Assembly (NCBI RefSeq): GCF_025685425.1
Contig: NZ_JAGTAS010000022.1
Location: 62,001-126,000, forward strand
Reading direction: 5' to 3'
Source: Terriglobus albidus
GTDB taxonomy: Bacteria > Acidobacteriota > Terriglobia > Terriglobales > Acidobacteriaceae
DNA length: 64,000 bases
Position 1 is the stretch's first letter, and each line of letters starts with the position of its first letter. The notes under the pieces are model-generated. The model had not been told where the DNA came from and searched no databases. It worked only from the letters and a program-made list of their open reading frames with translations. Made by a program: the position numbers and the translations under genes. Shown here in pieces: positions 30,020 to 63,066 of this stretch.

Positions 30020-32479
30020 TTAGGCAGGGCGGTTGCCGCCACCCTGCTGTCCGCCACCCTGTCCACCGGGACGGCGTCCGCCGCGGCGGCGACGACGACC
30101 ACGGCCACCATCACGCTTCTGCTGCCCCTGACCGGCACCCTGAACGAAGCCTCCGGGAACGTCGGCGCGGTTGAAGTTCTCATCACCGCCTTCGCTGCCC
30201 TCACCTTCGAAGTCGTCATCGCCTTCCTCGTCTTCGTCGAAGTCGTCGCCACCCTCAATTGTGATGGTGGGCTCATTCGACGGCTGACGCTCGGGGCGCG
30301 GAGCACGAGGTCCACGATCGCCTCTGCCACCTTCCTGCGCGCTCTTGCCGCCTTCCTGCGGCGCAGCAACCGGTGGAAGACCCAGCTTCTCACGCTGTTC
30401 GCGAAGAACAGCCTTGCGGGAGAGCTTGATACGGTTGCCTTCAATGGCCAGGACCTTCACCAGGACCTGATCGCCCTCACGCAGTTCGTCCTTCACATCC
30501 TTGACTCGATGTTCTGCGATCTCGGAGACGTGCAGCAGACCGTCGGTGCCGGGGAAGATCTCCACAAAGGCGCCGAACTCCGCCAGACGAACGACCTTGC
30601 CCAGATAGGTCTTGCCAACCTCGGGCACGGCCGTGAGGTCGCTGATCATCTGGATGGCGCGATCCAGTCCATCGGAGTCCGAGGAGGCGACATTGACGCG
30701 GCCGGAATCGTCGACGTCGATCTTCACTCCCGTGGCATCGATGATGCCGCGGATCACCTTGCCTCCCGGTCCGATAAGATCGCGGATCTTGTCGGTCGGA
30801 ATCTGCATGGTGTGGATACGCGGAGCGTAAGCCGAAGGCTTCTCGCTCGGAGAAGCAATGACGGCGTCCATCTTGTCCAGGAGGAAGAGACGGGCAATGC
30901 GTGCCTGCTCCAGGGCTTCACGCATGATCTGCGCGGTGATGCCCATGATCTTGATGTCCATCTGGAGAGCGGTAATACCGTTGCGGGTACCGGCTACCTT
31001 GAAGTCCATATCGCCGTAGTGGTCTTCCGCACCGGCGATATCGGTCAGGATGGCGTACTTATCGCCTTCCTTCACCAGGCCCATCGCGATACCCGCGACA
31101 GCGGCCTTTAGCTTGATGCCGGCGTGCATCAACGCGAGTGACGCACCGCAGACCGTTGCCATGGAAGACGAGCCGTTCGACTCAAGGATGTCCGAAACGA
31201 CACGCAGCACATAGGGCGACTCCGCCTCGGAGGGCAGAACAGCCTCGATAGCGCGCGACGCCAGGGCTCCGTGGCCGATCTCGCGGCGGCCAACGCCGGA
31301 CATACGGCCAACTTCACCGACCGAGAACGGCGGGAAGTTGTAGTGCAGCATGAAGGCCTTCTTCTGCTCACCGGTGTAAGTCTCGATACGCTGAGCATCG
31401 TCACCGGTGCCGAGCGTGGCGGTCACAAGTGCCTGTGTCTCGCCGCGGGTAAACAGGGCCGAACCGTGCGTGCGCGGAAGAACACCGACCTCGATGTCGA
31501 TCTTGCGGATCTGGTCGAAGGCGCGGCGATCAGGACGGATGCGCTCGTCGAGCACCTGCTCGCGGAAGGTGTTCTCGCGCAGCAGCTCGTAATATTTCGA
31601 GAGCTTCTTCGGAGCATCGGGATCGTCAGCCGGAAGAGCAGCCTTGAGCTCGTCCTTGATCTCCTTGACCTTGGCATAGCTGTCGATCTTCGTGTACTTC
31701 TGTGTGTCCAGCGCATCCTTCAGGCGGTCGCCCACCTTAGACTTCAGCTCGTTGTAATAAGCCTCGTCCTTCTCGACGGCGGCAACGGCGCGCTTGGGCT
31801 TGCCGGCCTTCTCCACCAGTTCGTTGATCGCAGCAACGATCTTCTTGAGCTCGCTGTGGCCGAACTCGATCGCGTCGACGACCTTATCCTCGGCGACCTC
31901 CTTGGCTCCGGACTCGATCATCACGATGCCATCCTTGGTGCCGACAACCATGATGTTGAGGAGGCTCTTTTCCTTCTCCTCGTAGGTCGGATTGACCACA
32001 AATTGATCGTCGACCAGGCCGACACGGACCGCACCAACAGGGCCGGCGAACGGGATGTCCGACAGCGCCAGAGCGCAGGAAGCGGCATTGATGGCGACGA
32101 CGTCAGGATCGTTTTCCTTGTCCGCGGAATAAACAAAGCCGACAACCTGTGTCTCGTTGCGGAAACCTTCCGGGAACAGAGGACGGATCGGGCGATCGAT
32201 CTGGCGTGCGGTGAGGATCTCCTTCTCCGAAGGACGGCCTTCACGCTTGATAAAGCCACCGGGGATGCGTCCACCGGCATAGGTAAACTCGCGATACTCA
32301 ACGGTGAGCGGGAAGAAATCGATGCCTTCCTTCGGCTCCGGGCTGGCAACAGCCGTGCCAAGGACTACGGTATCGCCGCTGGTCGTCAGCGCAGCGCCAG
32401 AAGCCTGCTTCGCGATCCGTCCCGTCTCAAATGTGATTCGCTTGCCACCGGCAAGCTCAACAGTCACTTCCTGTTTCAT
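30020..32479 (-). CDS. pnp: Polyribonucleotide nucleotidyltransferase (PNPase)
   Basis: An 819-residue 3'-5' phosphorolytic exoribonuclease. Two RNase PH domains are visible (first: GDTVVLGTAVASPEPKEGID; second: RTHGSALFTRGETQALVTAT, then EAVLPSEAESPYVLRVVSDI), followed by the KH domain (IRDLIGPGGKVIRGI) and the S1 domain (GKVVRLAEFGAFVEIFPGTD). The C-terminal hundred or so residues are an unusual tail: an acidic stretch rich in Asp, Glu and Gly, then an Arg/Gly-rich end with RGRRRRRGGRRPGG. E. coli PNPase has 711 residues. It is downstream of rpsO in the conserved order. Confidence 0.97.
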   Translation of the reverse strand: MKQEVTVELAGGKRITFETGRIAKQASGAALTTSGDTVVLGTAVASPEPKEGIDFFPLTVEYREFTYAGGRIPGGFIKREGRPSEKEILTARQIDRPIRPLFPEGFRNETQVVGFVYSADKENDPDVVAINAASCALALSDIPFAGPVGAVRVGLVDDQFVVNPTYEEKEKSLLNIMVVGTKDGIVMIESGAKEVAEDKVVDAIEFGHSELKKIVAAINELVEKAGKPKRAVAAVEKDEAYYNELKSKVGDRLKDALDTQKYTKIDSYAKVKEIKDELKAALPADDPDAPKKLSKYYELLRENTFREQVLDERIRPDRRAFDQIRKIDIEVGVLPRTHGSALFTRGETQALVTATLGTGDDAQRIETYTGEQKKAFMLHYNFPPFSVGEVGRMSGVGRREIGHGALASRAIEAVLPSEAESPYVLRVVSDILESNGSSSMATVCGASLALMHAGIKLKAAVAGIAMGLVKEGDKYAILTDIAGAEDHYGDMDFKVAGTRNGITALQMDIKIMGITAQIMREALEQARIARLFLLDKMDAVIASPSEKPSAYAPRIHTMQIPTDKIRDLIGPGGKVIRGIIDATGVKIDVDDSGRVNVASSDSDGLDRAIQMISDLTAVPEVGKTYLGKVVRLAEFGAFVEIFPGTDGLLHVSEIAEHRVKDVKDELREGDQVLVKVLAIEGNRIKLSRKAVLREQREKLGLPPVAAPQEGGKSAQEGGRGDRGPRAPRPERQPSNEPTITIEGGDDFDEDEEGDDDFEGEGSEGGDENFNRADVPGGFVQGAGQGQQKRDGGRGRRRRRGGRRPGGQGGGQQGGGNRPA

Positions 32480-41341: not shown

Positions 41342-42256
41342 TTAAGGATGGATTCTCCAGACACAATCGAGAACATCCTCAGACGACTCGCCGGGAATGC
41401 AGGAAACAGCGTGTCCTTCGAGCCACAGACGCATCCAGTACAACCGTCCTACACGCACCAGCCGTGATGCGACCGGCTGTTCCTTCTCAATGACGGAAAC
41501 CATCGCCTTGACGAGGCTATCCTGATCCTCGACCGTGTCTTCGTTGGTGGCGATCCCCTTACACTCCGCCAGCCGCTTTCGTGCAGTCTGATACTGCGAC
41601 GACGGCAACAGGCCGCTGTGAACCTGAAGATCCGTCATCTGTTCCACCGCCAGAGCAGCCGCCGGATTCAGTTCCGCGTCGAAGGCAAGGTAAAGAGCCT
41701 TGCCGCCTGCCACGCGTACCGGCAACATACCGCTCTCTTCCAGAACTGCCTGCGGTGCAAGGCGCGCCATCCGCTCCGGAGAGAAGCCTTCCAGGGTAAG
41801 CATGGGGCAATTCCACTGTGCGCCCATCGCACGCGTGATCTGTCCTTCACTCAGATTTGCGGCTTCCATCAGGCAGTCGCCGATGCGGCCATGTCCACGC
41901 TGTCGCTGGTGCTGCAGTGCCTGCTGCAGCTGTACAGGCGTAATGATTCCTTGAGCCATCAGTACCAGGCCCAACGGAATACGGTGGTTGTGTGGGCTGA
42001 ATTCATCGCCTGCGATGCTTGACCCAACTTCGCGGCGGACTGACTGGGTTACCAGTTGAGAAAGGCAGTTGCGGCTGCACGCCCACTGACCTTCAAAGTA
42101 GGGGCGGGTGCGATTTTTCCAGCGCTGCAACCACCCGCCGGCACACTGCAGGTTCCCGCAGAGCACGGTCTCAGTGACATTCGAGGGGATAGACTTACCG
42201 CCGAGAGACGGCGTTTGCAACACGACACTATCTTTTACTGAATCGATGTAGGCCAT
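41342..42256 (-). CDS. MshEN-domain protein of unknown function in the flagellar operon
   Basis: A 304-residue protein. The N-terminal 70 residues contain two Cys pairs (Cys 33, 38 and 60, 64) that could bind zinc. Residues about 92-165 match the MshEN/GspE N-terminal repeat: IPLGLVLMAQGIITPVQLQQ, then RIGDCLMEAANLSEGQITRA. No ATPase domain follows. MshEN domains of some GspE-type proteins bind cyclic di-GMP, so a second-messenger role is possible. It overlaps fliN by 22 bases, so it is co-translated with flagellar genes. Confidence 0.7.
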   Translation of the reverse strand: MAYIDSVKDSVVLQTPSLGGKSIPSNVTETVLCGNLQCAGGWLQRWKNRTRPYFEGQWACSRNCLSQLVTQSVRREVGSSIAGDEFSPHNHRIPLGLVLMAQGIITPVQLQQALQHQRQRGHGRIGDCLMEAANLSEGQITRAMGAQWNCPMLTLEGFSPERMARLAPQAVLEESGMLPVRVAGGKALYLAFDAELNPAAALAVEQMTDLQVHSGLLPSSQYQTARKRLAECKGIATNEDTVEDQDSLVKAMVSVIEKEQPVASRLVRVGRLYWMRLWLEGHAVSCIPGESSEDVLDCVWRIHP

Positions 42257-45452: not shown

Positions 45453-46543
45453 ATTCCACCTCCGGCCAGGCCGCCGGCTTCACGCATACGCTTCTCTCGT
45501 GCCTGTTGCTCAAGTTTTGTGCGATACAGATATGCCAGGATGCCCGCTACTGCCGAATACAACTCAAACGGAATCGACTGCCCAACTTCGACCATCTTGT
45601 ACAAACTCCGTGCCAATGGTTTGTTCTCCATAATCGGAACCCCTGCCCAGCGCGCCTGTTCACGGATCTCAAGCGCATGCAGGTTCTTACCCTTCGCCAG
45701 AACTTTAGGTGCGGACATCGTCTCAAAGCTGAACTCGAGCGCTACGGCATAGTGAGTCGGGTTGGTGATCACCACGCTGGCTCGGCTGATATCCGCTTTC
45801 TCTCTGCGCTTGCGCATCTGCCGCTGGAGCTGACGGATCTTCCCCTTAATTTGGGGATTACCCATCGCCTCTTTCACTTCCTCGCGGACTTCCTGTTTGC
45901 TCATCTTGAGGCGCTTATTCCACTGCACCCACTCCATGGCATAGTCCACGCCGGCCCACATCACCATGACCAGTGCGGTGATCATCGCCAGGTGATAGGC
46001 AGAAGCGAGTGTTTCCGTCAGGCGGTTGAGGCTCATCACCGGCATACCTGCAATCAGGCTGCGGATAGTCCCGACTGCAATGCCAATTACGATGGCCGCA
46101 GGAATCAGGCTCTTGGCCAGACGCAAGATGGAGCGGGTACCGAAAAGCTGCTTAACGTTTTCTGCCGGATTCAAGCGGGTCCACTTAGGTTCCAGGGCTT
46201 CCACACGAATCTGCGTGCCACCGCCCTGCAGAATGCCTCCCGTCAGAGTACCCATGAGAGCGCAGCTCATCACCACGACCGCGGGCCACAGTACTGGAAG
46301 CGCAACATGCCAGATAGCATGTCGAAACATTGCTTCATCCCAGTGCTCGCTTGTCATCGAGAGCACGTCGGAATATGCCCCGCGCCAGCTCTGCAGCACC
46401 TTCGGAGCAACCGCTCCTATCGCAGCCAAGCCGGCGAGCATGGCAAGAGAACTCAGCAACTCGCGCGAACGGACGACATCGCCTTTTTCGCGCGCCTTCC
46501 GCTTGCGTTGCGGTGTTGCCTGTTCTGTTTTCTGTTCGCTCAC
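45449..46543 (-). CDS. flhB: Flagellar export gate/switch protein FlhB
   Basis: A 364-residue protein with four membrane helices and the C-terminal autocleavage domain: VVITNPTHYAVALEFSFETM contains the NPTH motif cut between Asn and Pro. MSEQKTEQATPQRKRKAREK is the typical N-terminus. Cleavage switches export from hook to filament substrates. 4-base overlaps on both sides. Confidence 0.97.
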   Translation of the reverse strand: MSEQKTEQATPQRKRKAREKGDVVRSRELLSSLAMLAGLAAIGAVAPKVLQSWRGAYSDVLSMTSEHWDEAMFRHAIWHVALPVLWPAVVVMSCALMGTLTGGILQGGGTQIRVEALEPKWTRLNPAENVKQLFGTRSILRLAKSLIPAAIVIGIAVGTIRSLIAGMPVMSLNRLTETLASAYHLAMITALVMVMWAGVDYAMEWVQWNKRLKMSKQEVREEVKEAMGNPQIKGKIRQLQRQMRKRREKADISRASVVITNPTHYAVALEFSFETMSAPKVLAKGKNLHALEIREQARWAGVPIMENKPLARSLYKMVEVGQSIPFELYSAVAGILAYLYRTKLEQQAREKRMREAGGLAGGGM

Positions 46544-49374: not shown

Positions 49375-49390
49375 TGCACCTGCCGTGCCA
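49375..49390 (-). promoter_or_regulatory. Candidate sigma-54 promoter before fliL
   Basis: On the minus strand TGGCACGGCAGGTGCA matches TGGCACG-N4-TTGCA at all fixed positions but one, with GG and GC ten bases apart. The match lies inside a hairpin arm (49379-49405) and the predicted start would be about 4 bases before the fliL ATG, so it could be coincidence. Confidence 0.38.
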
Positions 49391-58891: not shown

Positions 58892-59350
58892 TTACTTCAA
58901 GATGTCCAGCGAGCTGGTGATCATGCTTTTCTCTGCCTGTACCGCCGATGCATTCATGCCATAGCTGCGCTGCGCGCTCATCAGTTCCACCATCTCGGTC
59001 AGTGGATCGATATCGGGATATGCAACATATCCGTTTGCATCGGCATCCGGATGTCCGGGATCGAAGCGCATAATCGGCGCTTTGGCGTCATTCTGCACGC
59101 CGACAACTTCCACGCCTCCGGTCGCATTCGAGCTAAGAGAGCCATGCATTCCCAGGTGCGACATAAAGGCAGCGCCGAACGCGCCATCCTGGCCGGCGGT
59201 CTGGAAGACCACCTGCTGTCTGCGGTACGGTCCTCCATCGGCGGTGCGGGTCGTCTCCGCATTCGCCATATTGCTGGCCGTTACTTCGGCACGAACTCTC
59301 TCAGCCTGCAGCGCGGATGCGCTGACATCCATCACACCAAACAGGTTCAT
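58892..59350 (-). CDS. flgC: Flagellar proximal rod protein FlgC
   Basis: A 152-residue rod protein with N-terminal MNLFGVMDVSASALQAERVR, VTASNMANAETTR and C-terminal PLTEMVELMSAQRSYGMNAS. 4-base overlap with flgB. Confidence 0.96.
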   Translation of the reverse strand: MNLFGVMDVSASALQAERVRAEVTASNMANAETTRTADGGPYRRQQVVFQTAGQDGAFGAAFMSHLGMHGSLSSNATGGVEVVGVQNDAKAPIMRFDPGHPDADANGYVAYPDIDPLTEMVELMSAQRSYGMNASAVQAEKSMITSSLDILK

Positions 59351-59703
59351 GCCTTACCGTCCGCTTTGATCGCGTCCATGACGCGTGAATATTCCCGCTT
59401 CAACAACTCCACGCCGGTACGGAAGGCGAGCTGCGATTTTGCCAACTGCATACCTTCGCGCTCTAAGGAGACATTGTTGCCGTCAGGCCGGGTTACCAGG
59501 CCATCAACATCACGCGTGGCCGGAGTAAATGTACCGCTTGCGGTGCCCTCCATGGCGTGCCGCATCTCATCTTCGAAACTGAAACCCTGTGTCCGGTAGC
59601 CGGGAGTATCAGCATTGGCCATATTGCTGGCCGTCAGCTTCATCTGGGCGCTGGCCAGGTCCAAATACCGCGTCAACGCGTCACTGATCGCACTCGTCTG
59701 CAT
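59347..59703 (-). CDS. flgB: Flagellar proximal rod protein FlgB
   Basis: A 118-residue rod protein: DALTRYLDLASAQMKLTASN, MANADTPGYRTQGFSFEDEM, with the C-terminal TGVELLKREYSRVMDAIKAD. First gene of the large flagellar block; a GAGGAAGAGG ribosome site precedes it. Confidence 0.96.
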   Translation of the reverse strand: MQTSAISDALTRYLDLASAQMKLTASNMANADTPGYRTQGFSFEDEMRHAMEGTASGTFTPATRDVDGLVTRPDGNNVSLEREGMQLAKSQLAFRTGVELLKREYSRVMDAIKADGKA

Positions 59704-60004: not shown

Positions 60005-61219
60005 CTACGCCCGTTTGCGGCGGAGTACAACCTCGGTCATTCCAATCTCCGGACGGTCTTCCGCCAGAATAGCCGCCCGCTCCAAAACATGTCCTAATTC
60101 ACGGACATTTCCAGGCCAGTCGTATCCCTGGAAGATCTCCAGAGCTGCCGGAGAGAGGCGTTTCTGCGGCATTGTTTCGCCAAGCTTATTGAGGATATGC
60201 GTCGCCAGCAGCGGGATGTCCTCCGCCCGCTCGCGCAATGCAGGAATGACCACAGGGAAAACTGCCAGCCGATGGTAGAGGTCCAGCCGGAAAGCCCGTT
60301 CCTGGCTCAGCCGCTCGAGATCGCGGTGGGTTGCCGCGATCACGCGCACATCGACCCGAACGGTCTCGTTGTCACCAACCCGTTGCAGTTCCCCATTCTC
60401 CAGAAAACGCAACATCTTGGCCTGCAACGGTAGCGGCATCTCCCCAATTTCATCCAGAAACAGGGTGCCGCCATTCGCCGCCTCGATGCGGCCGGTGCGT
60501 GACTGTACTGCACCGGTAAAAGCGCCGCGGGTGTGCCCGAAGAGTTCCGCTTCCAGCAGAGCCTCCGGAATGGCGGCGCAGTTCAAGGTCACAAATGGCT
60601 TCTGGGCGCGAGGACTGAGCCGGTGGATTGCCCTTGAAACCACCTCTTTACCCGTCCCCGTCTCTCCTTCAATCAGGACGGTCGTATCGCGTGGAGCGAC
60701 CAGGCGAACCATGCGAGCAAGCTCGCGCATGCCCGCGCTATTGCCGATCATTCCCGGTAACAAGGCTGCATCCACGGGAAGCTCGGCGGGAACAATCACG
60801 GGGACGGAAACCGTAGGCTCCCGCTCGATGCTCGAATGCGCTGGCTCCGGCGTGACCACAATATCTTCTTCTGCGGTACGCAGGACATGCAACAACTCGT
60901 GCCGCCTCGGGCTTCGCGGTCCGTCTCCAACCGGTACACCATCGGCGCGCAGAATATCGACCGATGGAAATGCCTGGCGCACCCAGGCAATAAATCCATC
61001 CACTTCCAGATCCGGCAGCCAGTTGTCGACAATAAGCGCTTCCGGAATACGCTGTTCCATGCTCGCCATGGCCTCAGCGCCGCCGGAAGCGGCCTCTACC
61101 TGCCAACGCAGGCCCTCAAGCGATGTAATCCATCGAAAACGCCGGTCTCCGTCCGCACTGACGACAACGGCGTGACGAACGGATACTGGTCCGTTCGTCA
61201 CCCTGGTTTCAAATGGCAT
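60005..61219 (-). CDS. Sigma-54-dependent activator with degenerate receiver and no DNA-binding domain
   Basis: A 404-residue protein. Residues 14-115 resemble a receiver: the phospho-acceptor Asp 65 is kept (IVDNWLP) but the acidic pair after the first strand is changed (VVVSAD) and the conserved Lys is not found. Residues 157-385 are an AAA+ domain with Walker A GETGTGKE (185-192), GAFTGA (232-237) and Walker B TLFLDEIGE. It ends 19 residues after the AAA+ domain (VVLRRKRA), without the usual Fis-type helix-turn-helix. FlgR of Helicobacter likewise lacks this domain. Next to flgB, so a flagellar activator is likely. The start overlaps the upstream stop (TAATG). Confidence 0.88.
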   Translation of the reverse strand: MPFETRVTNGPVSVRHAVVVSADGDRRFRWITSLEGLRWQVEAASGGAEAMASMEQRIPEALIVDNWLPDLEVDGFIAWVRQAFPSVDILRADGVPVGDGPRSPRRHELLHVLRTAEEDIVVTPEPAHSSIEREPTVSVPVIVPAELPVDAALLPGMIGNSAGMRELARMVRLVAPRDTTVLIEGETGTGKEVVSRAIHRLSPRAQKPFVTLNCAAIPEALLEAELFGHTRGAFTGAVQSRTGRIEAANGGTLFLDEIGEMPLPLQAKMLRFLENGELQRVGDNETVRVDVRVIAATHRDLERLSQERAFRLDLYHRLAVFPVVIPALRERAEDIPLLATHILNKLGETMPQKRLSPAALEIFQGYDWPGNVRELGHVLERAAILAEDRPEIGMTEVVLRRKRA

Positions 61220-61458
61220 TATTTTAGGTCCCCTGGTCCGTCTTGCATCGCTTCTCGAAGCTGCTGTCGCATCCGCATGGCGATGCCATTCAACCGTTCG
61301 CATTCCGTCAGACTGTCGGCTATCGCGCGACGCATGCCTTCCTCGTCGCCTTCCATCTCTGCCAACTCCAAACGGCACTGCAATGCCGTCAGCGGTTGGC
61401 ACAGGTCATGCAGCATCACGCTCAGTTCCTGTACCTGTTCACGATCCATAGTTGTCAC
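61219..61458 (-). CDS. Small histidine-kinase DHp-like protein without ATPase domain
   Basis: A 79-residue protein predicted as two helices (about 5-36 and 40-70) separated by a GDEEG turn. Helix 1 contains MLHDLCQPLTALQCRLELAE, closely like the H-box of HisKA kinases (His 17 would be the phospho-acceptor). No catalytic ATPase domain follows. It sits between two response-regulator genes, overlapping both (GTGA and TAATG), so it may be a phosphotransfer or inhibitory partner. GTG at 61458 and ATG at 61449 are both possible starts. Confidence 0.7.
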   Translation of the reverse strand: MTTMDREQVQELSVMLHDLCQPLTALQCRLELAEMEGDEEGMRRAIADSLTECERLNGIAMRMRQQLREAMQDGPGDLK

Positions 61459-62216
61459 GCGTGTCGCAATATCCGTGTTGTACTACCCGCGGCTACGCTC
61501 TGTGAACCCGATTTTTCCGGGAGGCCACCCGGAAACGACATGCTCCGCAACCGGTAGCCCTCGCCCCGAACCGTTTCAATCAACGCGGCGCCATCTGACA
61601 CACCCTGTACAGTCAGCTTTCGGCGCAGATAGTTGATATATACGTCTACGACATTTGTGCCAGTATGCGACGTTGTCCGCCATACACCATTCAAAAGTTG
61701 CGCACGGGAAACGGCTTTCCCCTTGTGAAGCAACAGGTACTCGAGCAGCGCATATTCCTTCGAGGTCAGCTCTACTTCCACGTCGGCTACACGCACCTGA
61801 CGGAGCATACGGTTCACTTCCAGGACGCCGTACTTCAGAAGCTGATCCGGTACGTGCTTCTTACGGCGCATCACAGCACGACAGCGTGCTGTTAGTTCAT
61901 GGAAGCTAAATGGTTTAAGTAGATAATCGTCGGCTCCGAGATCCAGACAGCGGACCCGCTCTTCAACCTGAGTCCGCCCCGTCAGTACGAGTACGGAGGT
62001 ATGGGGCATCCTGCGGTGTACTTCTTCAAGCAGTTGAGCTCCATCCATTTTGGGCAAACTCAGATCCAGAACGACAAGTTCCGGATTTTCTTCCATCGCG
62101 TGATGGAGTGCGGCTTCTCCATCCTGTAACCACTCGACTTGATGACCTTCTTTTTCGAGTCCCTTCTTCAAGAGCATTCCAAGGGCTTTATCGTCTTCCA
62201 CCAGCAGAATTCCCAT
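61455..62216 (-). CDS. OmpR/PhoB-type response regulator
   Basis: A 253-residue two-domain regulator. The receiver is canonical: Asp 8/9 (VEDD), phospho-Asp 51 (VVLDLSLPKMDG), Thr 79, Lys 101 (LLKPFSF). The C-terminal winged helix has VELTSKEYALLEYLLLHKGK and NVVDVYINYLRRKL, then IETVRGEGYRL. GGAG lies 6 bases before the ATG at 62214-62216. No conventional sensor kinase is adjacent. Its C-terminus has a poorly conserved tail of about 35 residues. Confidence 0.93.
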   Translation of the reverse strand: MGILLVEDDKALGMLLKKGLEKEGHQVEWLQDGEAALHHAMEENPELVVLDLSLPKMDGAQLLEEVHRRMPHTSVLVLTGRTQVEERVRCLDLGADDYLLKPFSFHELTARCRAVMRRKKHVPDQLLKYGVLEVNRMLRQVRVADVEVELTSKEYALLEYLLLHKGKAVSRAQLLNGVWRTTSHTGTNVVDVYINYLRRKLTVQGVSDGAALIETVRGEGYRLRSMSFPGGLPEKSGSQSVAAGSTTRILRHA

Positions 62217-62457: not shown

Positions 62458-63066
62458 ATGTCAGACATGGCGATCACCCGGCGGCAAAAGGACGTTCTCG
62501 ACTTCCTCACCTCATTCACGCAGCGTTGCGGATATTCCCCTTCGTATGAGGAGATCGCCAGCGGTCTCGGCGTCAATTCGCTTGCCACCGTGCACAAGCA
62601 CATCACGAACCTGCAGAACAAAGGTTTGTTGCAGCGTGCGCATAATCGCAGCCGTTCGATCGATGTTCTGCCGGCACGCTCCAAGAAGGGTACCGACCGC
62701 CTGCCACTGCTTGGCCGCATTGCCGCTGGGCGGCCGGTGGAAGCCGTTGAAACAGCTGAAACGATCTCTCTCAGCGATATTCTTGGCAACCGGGAGGTCT
62801 TCGCCCTTGAGGTCCGTGGCGATTCCATGCGGGACGAACATATCGTCTCCGGCGACTATGTTTTGGTTGAGCGTACCCGCACTGCCCGGGAGGGCGAAAT
62901 TGTCGTTGCTTTAGTTGACGGCACAGATGCCACACTCAAGCGGTTTTACCGGGAAGGCAGCATGATTCGCCTGCAGCCCTCAAACTCCGAGATGGCGCCA
63001 ATCTTCGCCCCGGCAGCCGCGGTAACGATCCAGGGAAAGGTTCTGGGAGTGTTGCGGAAGTACTAG
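62458..63066 (+). CDS. lexA: SOS repressor LexA
   Basis: A 202-residue repressor-protease. The N-terminal winged helix (ITRRQKDVLDFLTSF; PSYEEIASGLGVNSLATVHK) binds DNA. The cleavage site is Ala 90-Gly 91 in RIAAGRPVEA; the catalytic Ser 123 is in RGDSMRDEHI and Lys 161 in ATLKRFYREG. Length is standard. The ATG at 62458 is used; an in-frame ATG three codons later is possible. Confidence 0.96.
   Translation: MSDMAITRRQKDVLDFLTSFTQRCGYSPSYEEIASGLGVNSLATVHKHITNLQNKGLLQRAHNRSRSIDVLPARSKKGTDRLPLLGRIAAGRPVEAVETAETISLSDILGNREVFALEVRGDSMRDEHIVSGDYVLVERTRTAREGEIVVALVDGTDATLKRFYREGSMIRLQPSNSEMAPIFAPAAAVTIQGKVLGVLRKY

Follow-up and report, generated by a model that had tools for sequence, protein, structure and literature searches.

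In a 64,000-nucleotide stretch of the Terriglobus albidus genome (contig NZ_JAGTAS010000022.1, positions 62,001 to 126,000; here called the window) we identified a 79-residue protein with a histidine phosphoacceptor motif (H-box), here named X, that is encoded between an OmpR-type response regulator and a sigma-54 activator at the head of a set of flagellar genes. Our analysis indicates that X is probably an ATP-independent phosphoryl handler, acting as a relay, a phosphatase or both, for the OmpR-type regulator, and that it descends from a pseudo-kinase whose catalytic and ATP-binding (CA) domain has been lost. Homology to the dimerisation and phosphoacceptor (DHp) domain of HisKA kinases, residue invariance, selection, the order of the forms on a tree and a predicted helical hairpin were obtained directly; beyond these, X would form a dimer, dock on the OmpR-type regulator, carry one or both of the two activities and influence the flagellar genes.

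The three genes lie on the minus strand in the order OmpR-type regulator (61455..62216; receiver and winged helix, Pfam Response_reg 103 bits and Trans_reg_C 85.4 bits), X (61219..61458, with a GTG start) and sigma-54 activator (60005..61219; a degenerate receiver and an AAA+ domain with GAFTGA). The stop codon of the regulator overlaps the start of X as GTGA, and at a TAATG junction one base is common to X and the activator. The order, strand, coordinates and overlaps given in an earlier note on this DNA are all borne out by the open reading frames of the window, and the Pfam scan and the sequence bear out its description of X as an H-box protein (HDLCQPLTAL, the His being residue 17 from the GTG and 14 from an ATG at codon 4) with no ATPase domain. 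The note's further claim, that the three products are made in fixed ratio, goes beyond the overlaps, which suggest translational coupling only. A frameshifted full kinase was also considered and rejected, as the activator begins one base before the X stop and leaves no space for a CA domain.

Against Pfam HisKA (PF00512) X scores 26.4 bits (E 7.2e-6), slightly under the curated cut-off of 26.9; the long relatives L020, L024, L033 and L023 score above the cut-off, and the Edaphobacter-type L037 reaches only 12.6 bits. At E <= 1, no ATPase family and no histidine phosphotransfer (HPt) family was among the Pfam matches of X. Of the 44 HisKA matches in the genome of the window, 43 occur in frames of at least 401 aa and only X in a short one, of 87 aa. 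The proposal that a lone DHp would form a two-helix hairpin is supported by AlphaFold2, which predicts helices at residues 6-36 and 39-72 with a mean predicted local distance difference test score (pLDDT) of 84.2.

The residues around the phosphoacceptor site are uneven in their conservation. An alignment of 41 members collected by similarity shows no variation at His17, Gln21 or Pro22, and Leu19, Thr24, Leu26 and Leu30 near the His are conserved at 90% or more. A broader tally, for which entries were read with a pattern of His and Gln-Pro, covered 98 entries, 96 of them with a readable H-box (the two others being L221, cut by a contig end, and the fragment L229b), which collapse to 77 distinct sequences. 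His17 and Gln21, the latter at the fourth position after the His (H+4), are present in 77/77, so that the His singled out in the earlier note does not vary among the members read; four long copies reached through the activator and not through X (L222, L223, L226, L228) also carry both residues. The position directly after the His (H+1) is Asp in the window copy and varies freely across the 77 members (D 31, G 14, A 8, S 8, E 5, R 5, Q 3, M 1, H 1, K 1). As a control, the ordinary HisKA domains of the window's genome (26 of 30 loci readable) have Glu or Asp at H+1 in 25 of 26 cases, against 36 of 77 for X (Fisher p 4e-6), and at H+4 have Asn (10), Thr (9), Ser (5) or Ala (2), with Gln in 0/26.

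In HisKA kinases the H+1 residue is required for kinase but not phosphatase activity, an Asn or Thr at H+4 is required for phosphatase activity, and in RapH the H+4 job is done by Gln47 (PMC3510030; papers given here by PMC number are drawn on in excerpt). Given these roles and the two tallies, the position for autophosphorylation has been released in X and the position for phosphatase activity has been fixed as Gln; the phosphatase-type amide or hydroxyl is thus present as Gln, where in HisKA kinases the residue is Thr or Asn. A freed H+1 beside a fixed H+4 amide is also the pattern of kinase-dead, phosphatase-competent HisKA mutants in the same source, which favours an alternative in which X only takes phosphate off the OmpR-type regulator, as a dedicated phosphatase or a phosphate sink, and no longer acts as a relay, its His serving folding or the phosphatase reaction. 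We regard this alternative as unlikely, because the His is invariant whereas the H371A variant of CrdS is described as having lost phosphatase activity only in part (PMC3510030), and because the long relatives described below look like known relays; H610A in PleC is described there as abolishing both activities.

The probable origin of X can be read from these relatives. In other genera X is a protein of 220-270 aa that combines the DHp with a kinase-fold domain lacking the ATP-binding G boxes. Across an alignment of 14 long forms the His and Gln-Pro are invariant and the second half is poorly conserved. Pfam HATPase_c was unmatched in 14 of 20 distinct long forms, below the cut-off in two (L213, L216) and above it in four (L217, L218, L222, L223), all from genus g24, and Pfam HPTransfase (PF10090) was unmatched by long forms in the scans made. 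A DxGxG or GxGL box was found in 0/39 long entries, some of which are one protein fetched twice and two of which are fragments, and both boxes were found in two real kinases from the same loci; an N-box pattern missed these two control kinases and was uninformative. The AlphaFold2 model of a 222-aa long form (pLDDT 77.9) gave 327 matches in the PDB at E <= 0.001, including the DHp-CA structures of the kinases CusS, HK853 and DivL. Because the G boxes are absent and the predicted fold matches kinase DHp-CA structures, we take the long form to be a pseudo-kinase.

The same locus also occurs without X. Of 200 family genomes, 72 have a strong match (E <= 1e-16) to the N-terminal domain of the activator, and match strength falls off clearly after these; X stands between the OmpR and activator genes in 21 of the 72 (19 short, 2 long). 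In 51/51 of the remainder OmpR adjoins the activator with no H-box between them, and an H-box motif scan across the OmpR-activator regions of all 51 was empty. Two hiding places for X were explored and rejected: eight wide OmpR-activator gaps read in three frames contained no H-box, and a profile search for a relocated X in the 51 genomes (E <= 1e-8) returned only frames of 472-819 aa at no more than 40.4 bits, where two X-bearing control genomes gave 91.9 and 79.2 bits; this search had no long-form control, and a very divergent long X may exist elsewhere in the X-less genomes. Weaker activator matches mark loci with OmpR, a long X and the activator, often followed by a kinase, a second activator with a canonical receiver and a helix-turn-helix (HTH), and flgB.

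These states were placed on a tree of OmpR and activator from 100 loci (52 without X, 34 short and 14 long, the short set being a selection with near-copies thinned by eye), a quick tree with midpoint root and support from the Shimodaira-Hasegawa-like approximate likelihood ratio test (SH-aLRT) only. L215, L221 and L222, with broken OmpR and activator frames, and L229 were left out, and at L224, L225 and L230 the activator lacks an adjacent OmpR-X pair. The 34 short forms fall into one group (SH-aLRT 95) whose nearest relatives are L231 and L232, both long, and L165, which has no X, and the three X states require 5 changes on the tree against a mean of 40.2 after shuffling. The simplest story is that the long pseudo-kinase came first and was followed by several losses and one reduction to a DHp; since the root is the midpoint, the order of long before short rests also on the full kinase fold of the long form. 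At L229 (7100-7405, genome G155) the activator is directly preceded by 101 aa left over from a long X whose DHp is gone, and the contig also has an intact OmpR-X pair some 3 kb further upstream.

The short form is nonetheless a maintained gene. Against the near relative G128, X has a rate of nonsynonymous substitution (dN) of 0.005 and of synonymous substitution (dS) of 0.273, a dN/dS of 0.02, which is close to that of OmpR (0.017) and under that of the activator (0.077), and the frame is intact in 34/34 sampled loci of the short-X clade. With X as query, matches at E <= 0.001 were obtained in 52/200 family genomes and 29/297 phylum genomes, ordinary kinases included. The three-gene order sought in other genomes does recur: short standalone X is found in genera g1 (that of the window), g34 and g64, mostly as divergent lexA-like gene, OmpR, X and activator, and a scan of named genomes yielded 46 loci (34 short, 12 long), in which the genus names are Granulicella and Edaphobacter and the other titles nearly all read Acidobacteria, Acidobacteriaceae, Acidobacteriales or Terriglobia. 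By these sequence comparisons X is under purifying selection, a kept protein and neither a chance open reading frame nor a dying fragment, since selection and distribution rule out both. That X should be a functionless, decaying kinase fragment would fit its being a truncated version of a longer gene, as the tree and the long forms indicate, and the fact that 51/72 genomes manage without it, but this explanation can practically be dismissed in view of the dN/dS, the intact frames and the kept junction overlaps. The earlier note had allowed that a kinase fusion in relatives would mark X as decayed, and of this the longer form does exist, but it is by sequence no working kinase and X is maintained; X is, as far as sequence can tell, a truncated but maintained descendant of a pseudo-kinase.

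Which of its two neighbours X serves is suggested by the state of their receivers. The phosphorylation site of the OmpR-type regulator is canonical, with Glu7, Asp8, Asp9, Asp51, Thr79 and Lys101 tallied over 100 loci: Asp51 is present at 33/33 readable short, 14/14 long and 52/52 X-less loci, and Lys101 at 34 short, 14 long and 52 X-less loci. The activator has a strong Sigma54_activat match (235.1 bits) and AAA_lid_14, its receiver scores 14.0 bits against a cut-off of 30.2, and the Pfam scan found no DNA-binding domain (HTH) in it. The window copy has S-A-D at the position of the acidic pair and an unrecognisable Thr/Lys end, and across the 100 loci Asp65, at the phosphorylation position, is retained in 100/100 with the acidic pair and the Thr/Lys end lost. 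Trp67 is present at 34/34 short, 49/52 X-less and 3/14 long loci, and the short-form loci have a conserved R-S-P-R-R-x-E-L-L-H stretch; with Asp65, these features make the N-terminus look like a pseudo-receiver under constraint. Of the two response regulators seen at first, then, the OmpR-type protein is canonical and the activator is degenerate, and phosphate transfer between the two, which the earlier note had suggested, finds no support in view of that degeneracy. In genus g29 and at related loci the OmpR-X pair is found with neither a sigma-54 activator nor flagellar genes within the stretch examined. Because the activator receiver is degenerate, OmpR-X persists alone in g29 and OmpR-activator persists without X in 51 genomes, the OmpR-type regulator is the likely partner of X.

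According to our model, the starting state would be a pseudo-kinase and an OmpR-type regulator paired at a flagellar regulatory locus. The whole CA domain would then have been lost along the branch leading to one Acidobacteriaceae clade, and the hairpin retained. X would dimerise into a four-helix bundle and dock on the receiver of the adjoining regulator, phosphoryl groups would be exchanged between His17 and Asp51 with no use of ATP, and Gln21 would permit the phosphate on the Asp to be hydrolysed. A dimeric DHp that has the His and an amide at H+4 can, even with no CA, take up and hand on phosphate and assist in its hydrolysis. X could thus relay phosphate in the cell from a kinase encoded elsewhere, like ChpT and Spo0B, hold the regulator off as a phosphatase, or do both. 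The invariant His favours transfer, and the loss of X with an intact regulator favours a tuning role; on balance a relay is more likely than a pure phosphatase. That relay is the main role is a tentative preference that falls somewhat short of an even chance, and that phosphatase activity is the main role seems rather doubtful.

Several observations weigh against X as a handler of phosphoryl groups, or against the relay in particular. Gln-Pro invariance is built in for the 46 named-contig loci, because these were found by a pattern that contains Gln-Pro, though not the His. With the X hairpin as query, Foldseek found nothing at E <= 0.001, designed bundles heading the list. A hybrid kinase is a neighbour in one genome only. 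Because Asp51 and Lys101 are kept at all 52 X-less loci, X is dispensable for the regulator staying phosphorylatable, and a relay that was obligatory would not be lost so readily; the dedicated phosphatase accommodates the loss in 51 genomes more easily, as a protein that only tunes the regulator, and also draws on the acidic pair being, with six Asp8 or Asp9 positions set aside, slightly looser without X (Asp8 at 47/52 X-less loci against 47/47 readable loci with X, p 0.058). The domain A construct of EnvZ, like X, is a DHp without CA that has an OmpR-type partner, although it is a laboratory truncation and X a natural gene with a free H+1 and Gln at H+4. Phosphatase activity of the isolated EnvZ DHp domain was reportedly found by Zhu et al. 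in 2000. A DHp-only construct of EnvZ expressed in mammalian cells is described in an excerpt of PMC8971529 as having no apparent phosphatase activity, unlike in the original report.

It is formally conceivable that X handles no phosphate and is instead a non-catalytic adaptor or anti-activator, its hairpin binding and blocking the OmpR receiver or the activator. PhyT also keeps its regulator, when unphosphorylated, bound in a complex (PMC5898713), and Leu19, Thr24, Leu26 and Leu30 are on the helix that in known complexes is turned towards the receiver. Pure binding leaves the invariant His and Gln beside a freely varying H+1 unexplained, and we consider such an adaptor improbable.

If X does handle phosphoryl groups as a relay, a donor would be required. 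Among the neighbours the hunt for a donor kinase gave one hybrid and one plain kinase only: in G038 the gene ahead of OmpR, long X and activator encodes a hybrid kinase with PAS, HisKA, HATPase_c and receiver domains, and in G021 a plain kinase occupies that position before OmpR. OmpR-X has a receiver-HD-GYP-like gene as divergent neighbour in genus g24 and in G052 (L217:8989-10248, L218:1503-2651, L222:8953-10101, L223:8345-9496, L232:6017-7426; a Pfam scan was made of the L232 copy only), which possibly signals a link to cyclic di-GMP or a second phosphate acceptor. We treat the neighbouring kinases and the receiver-HD-GYP genes only as hints to a donor or a second target.

In plan, X resembles Spo0B, ChpT and PhyT, in which a DHp (HisKA-like or HisKA_2-like) with a phosphorylatable His and no autokinase activity serves a receiver partner; the long forms match this plan, whereas the window X has no CA domain whatsoever and is not known to have a fixed donor kinase. 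Spo0B and ChpT keep a CA domain that looks useless and whose remaining role is debated, and CtrA, the target of ChpT, is an OmpR-type regulator. The CA domain of ChpT is described as functionally degenerated (PMC9981736), and ChpT and PhyT are presented as dead-CA proteins that work as relays (PMC9981736, PMC5898713); in the excerpt of the latter PhyT has no phosphatase activity in the reported assay. The conserved His of the pseudo-kinase phosphotransferases is present in the window X and their degenerate CA-fold domain is not, and because that domain is missing we would not file X as a member of this family but, by analogy, only as working like one. As a variant of these proteins without CA, X appears to be new, and a description of an X-like protein was not found in a literature search that reached few subscription journals. 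X also resembles the HPt and monomeric histidine phosphotransfer proteins as a small helical His phosphocarrier without an ATPase, but it matches HisKA and not an HPt family. The activator, without a DNA-binding domain, recalls FlgR of Helicobacter pylori (PMC3930126, in excerpt), and the order activator, kinase, second activator and flgB in other genera recalls flrA-flrB-flrC of the FlrABC and FleQSR systems, but the activator here differs in its degenerate receiver and in the OmpR-type regulator and X that come before it.

Within one family and at one locus the stages of reduction are visible side by side: an ATPase domain still recognisable, one no longer recognisable, one deleted, and the gene gone. 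It is an even call whether the lone, selected DHp gene is an end point of reduction from kinase to phosphotransferase, an ATP-free phosphoryl hub on an OmpR-type regulator that heads flagellar genes. The locus amounts to a natural domain-deletion experiment, with the same kind of protein present with and without CA in related bacteria, and setting the long form, the short form and the absence of X against one another would test what a pseudo-ATPase domain adds and how far a phosphoryl carrier can shrink and still work. The locus is also a way into flagellar control in Acidobacteriota, on which our literature search found no regulatory study. Two proteins from other families of the phylum have a DHp without CA. 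In a 190-aa protein at L049:1099-1671 (G217) a receiver-like domain, matched weakly at 17.6 bits, is fused to a HisKA domain behind it (27.5 bits, HDLSQPVTAL); the protein lacks an ATPase domain, and its gene is convergent with that of a sigma-54 activator. At L051:652-1710 (G265) a frame ends in a HisKA domain (29.1 bits, HDLTQPLTTI) that no ATPase domain follows. Together they hint that DHp without a CA domain is recurrent in Acidobacteriota.

On the minus strand of the window the three genes are followed by flgB (59347..59703, named from its sequence and gene order, a BLAST marker and the first downstream flagellar structural gene), flgC, fliE, fliF, fliG, fliH and fliI; among the flg and fli genes the Pfam scan was made for FliH only, and the other names come from sequence and order. 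The divergent LexA-like repressor gene (62458..63066, plus strand; named from sequence) serves as a locus marker that recurs beside the locus in many relatives. Downstream of the 34 short loci flgB or flgC follows in 19, a fliA-like sigma factor in 11 and neither within the stretch examined in four. The fliA-like gene replaces the flg/fli cluster after OmpR-X-activator at L071, L072, L077-L080, L082, L083 and L085-L087, and at L077 CheA-, CheW- and CheY-like frames, named by eye, lie upstream of the cassette. A 304-aa gene of the flagellar cluster (41342-42256, minus strand) has weak matches only, to MshEN and DUF4388. A scan of the window for sigma-54 promoters gave 22 matches with at most two mismatches against 13.3 expected, and 3 of 100 shuffles gave as many; it assigned no clear sigma-54 promoter upstream of flgB. 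Matches to the -24/-12 consensus with one mismatch lie on the minus strand at 45600-45615, 49375-49390 and 32345-32360.

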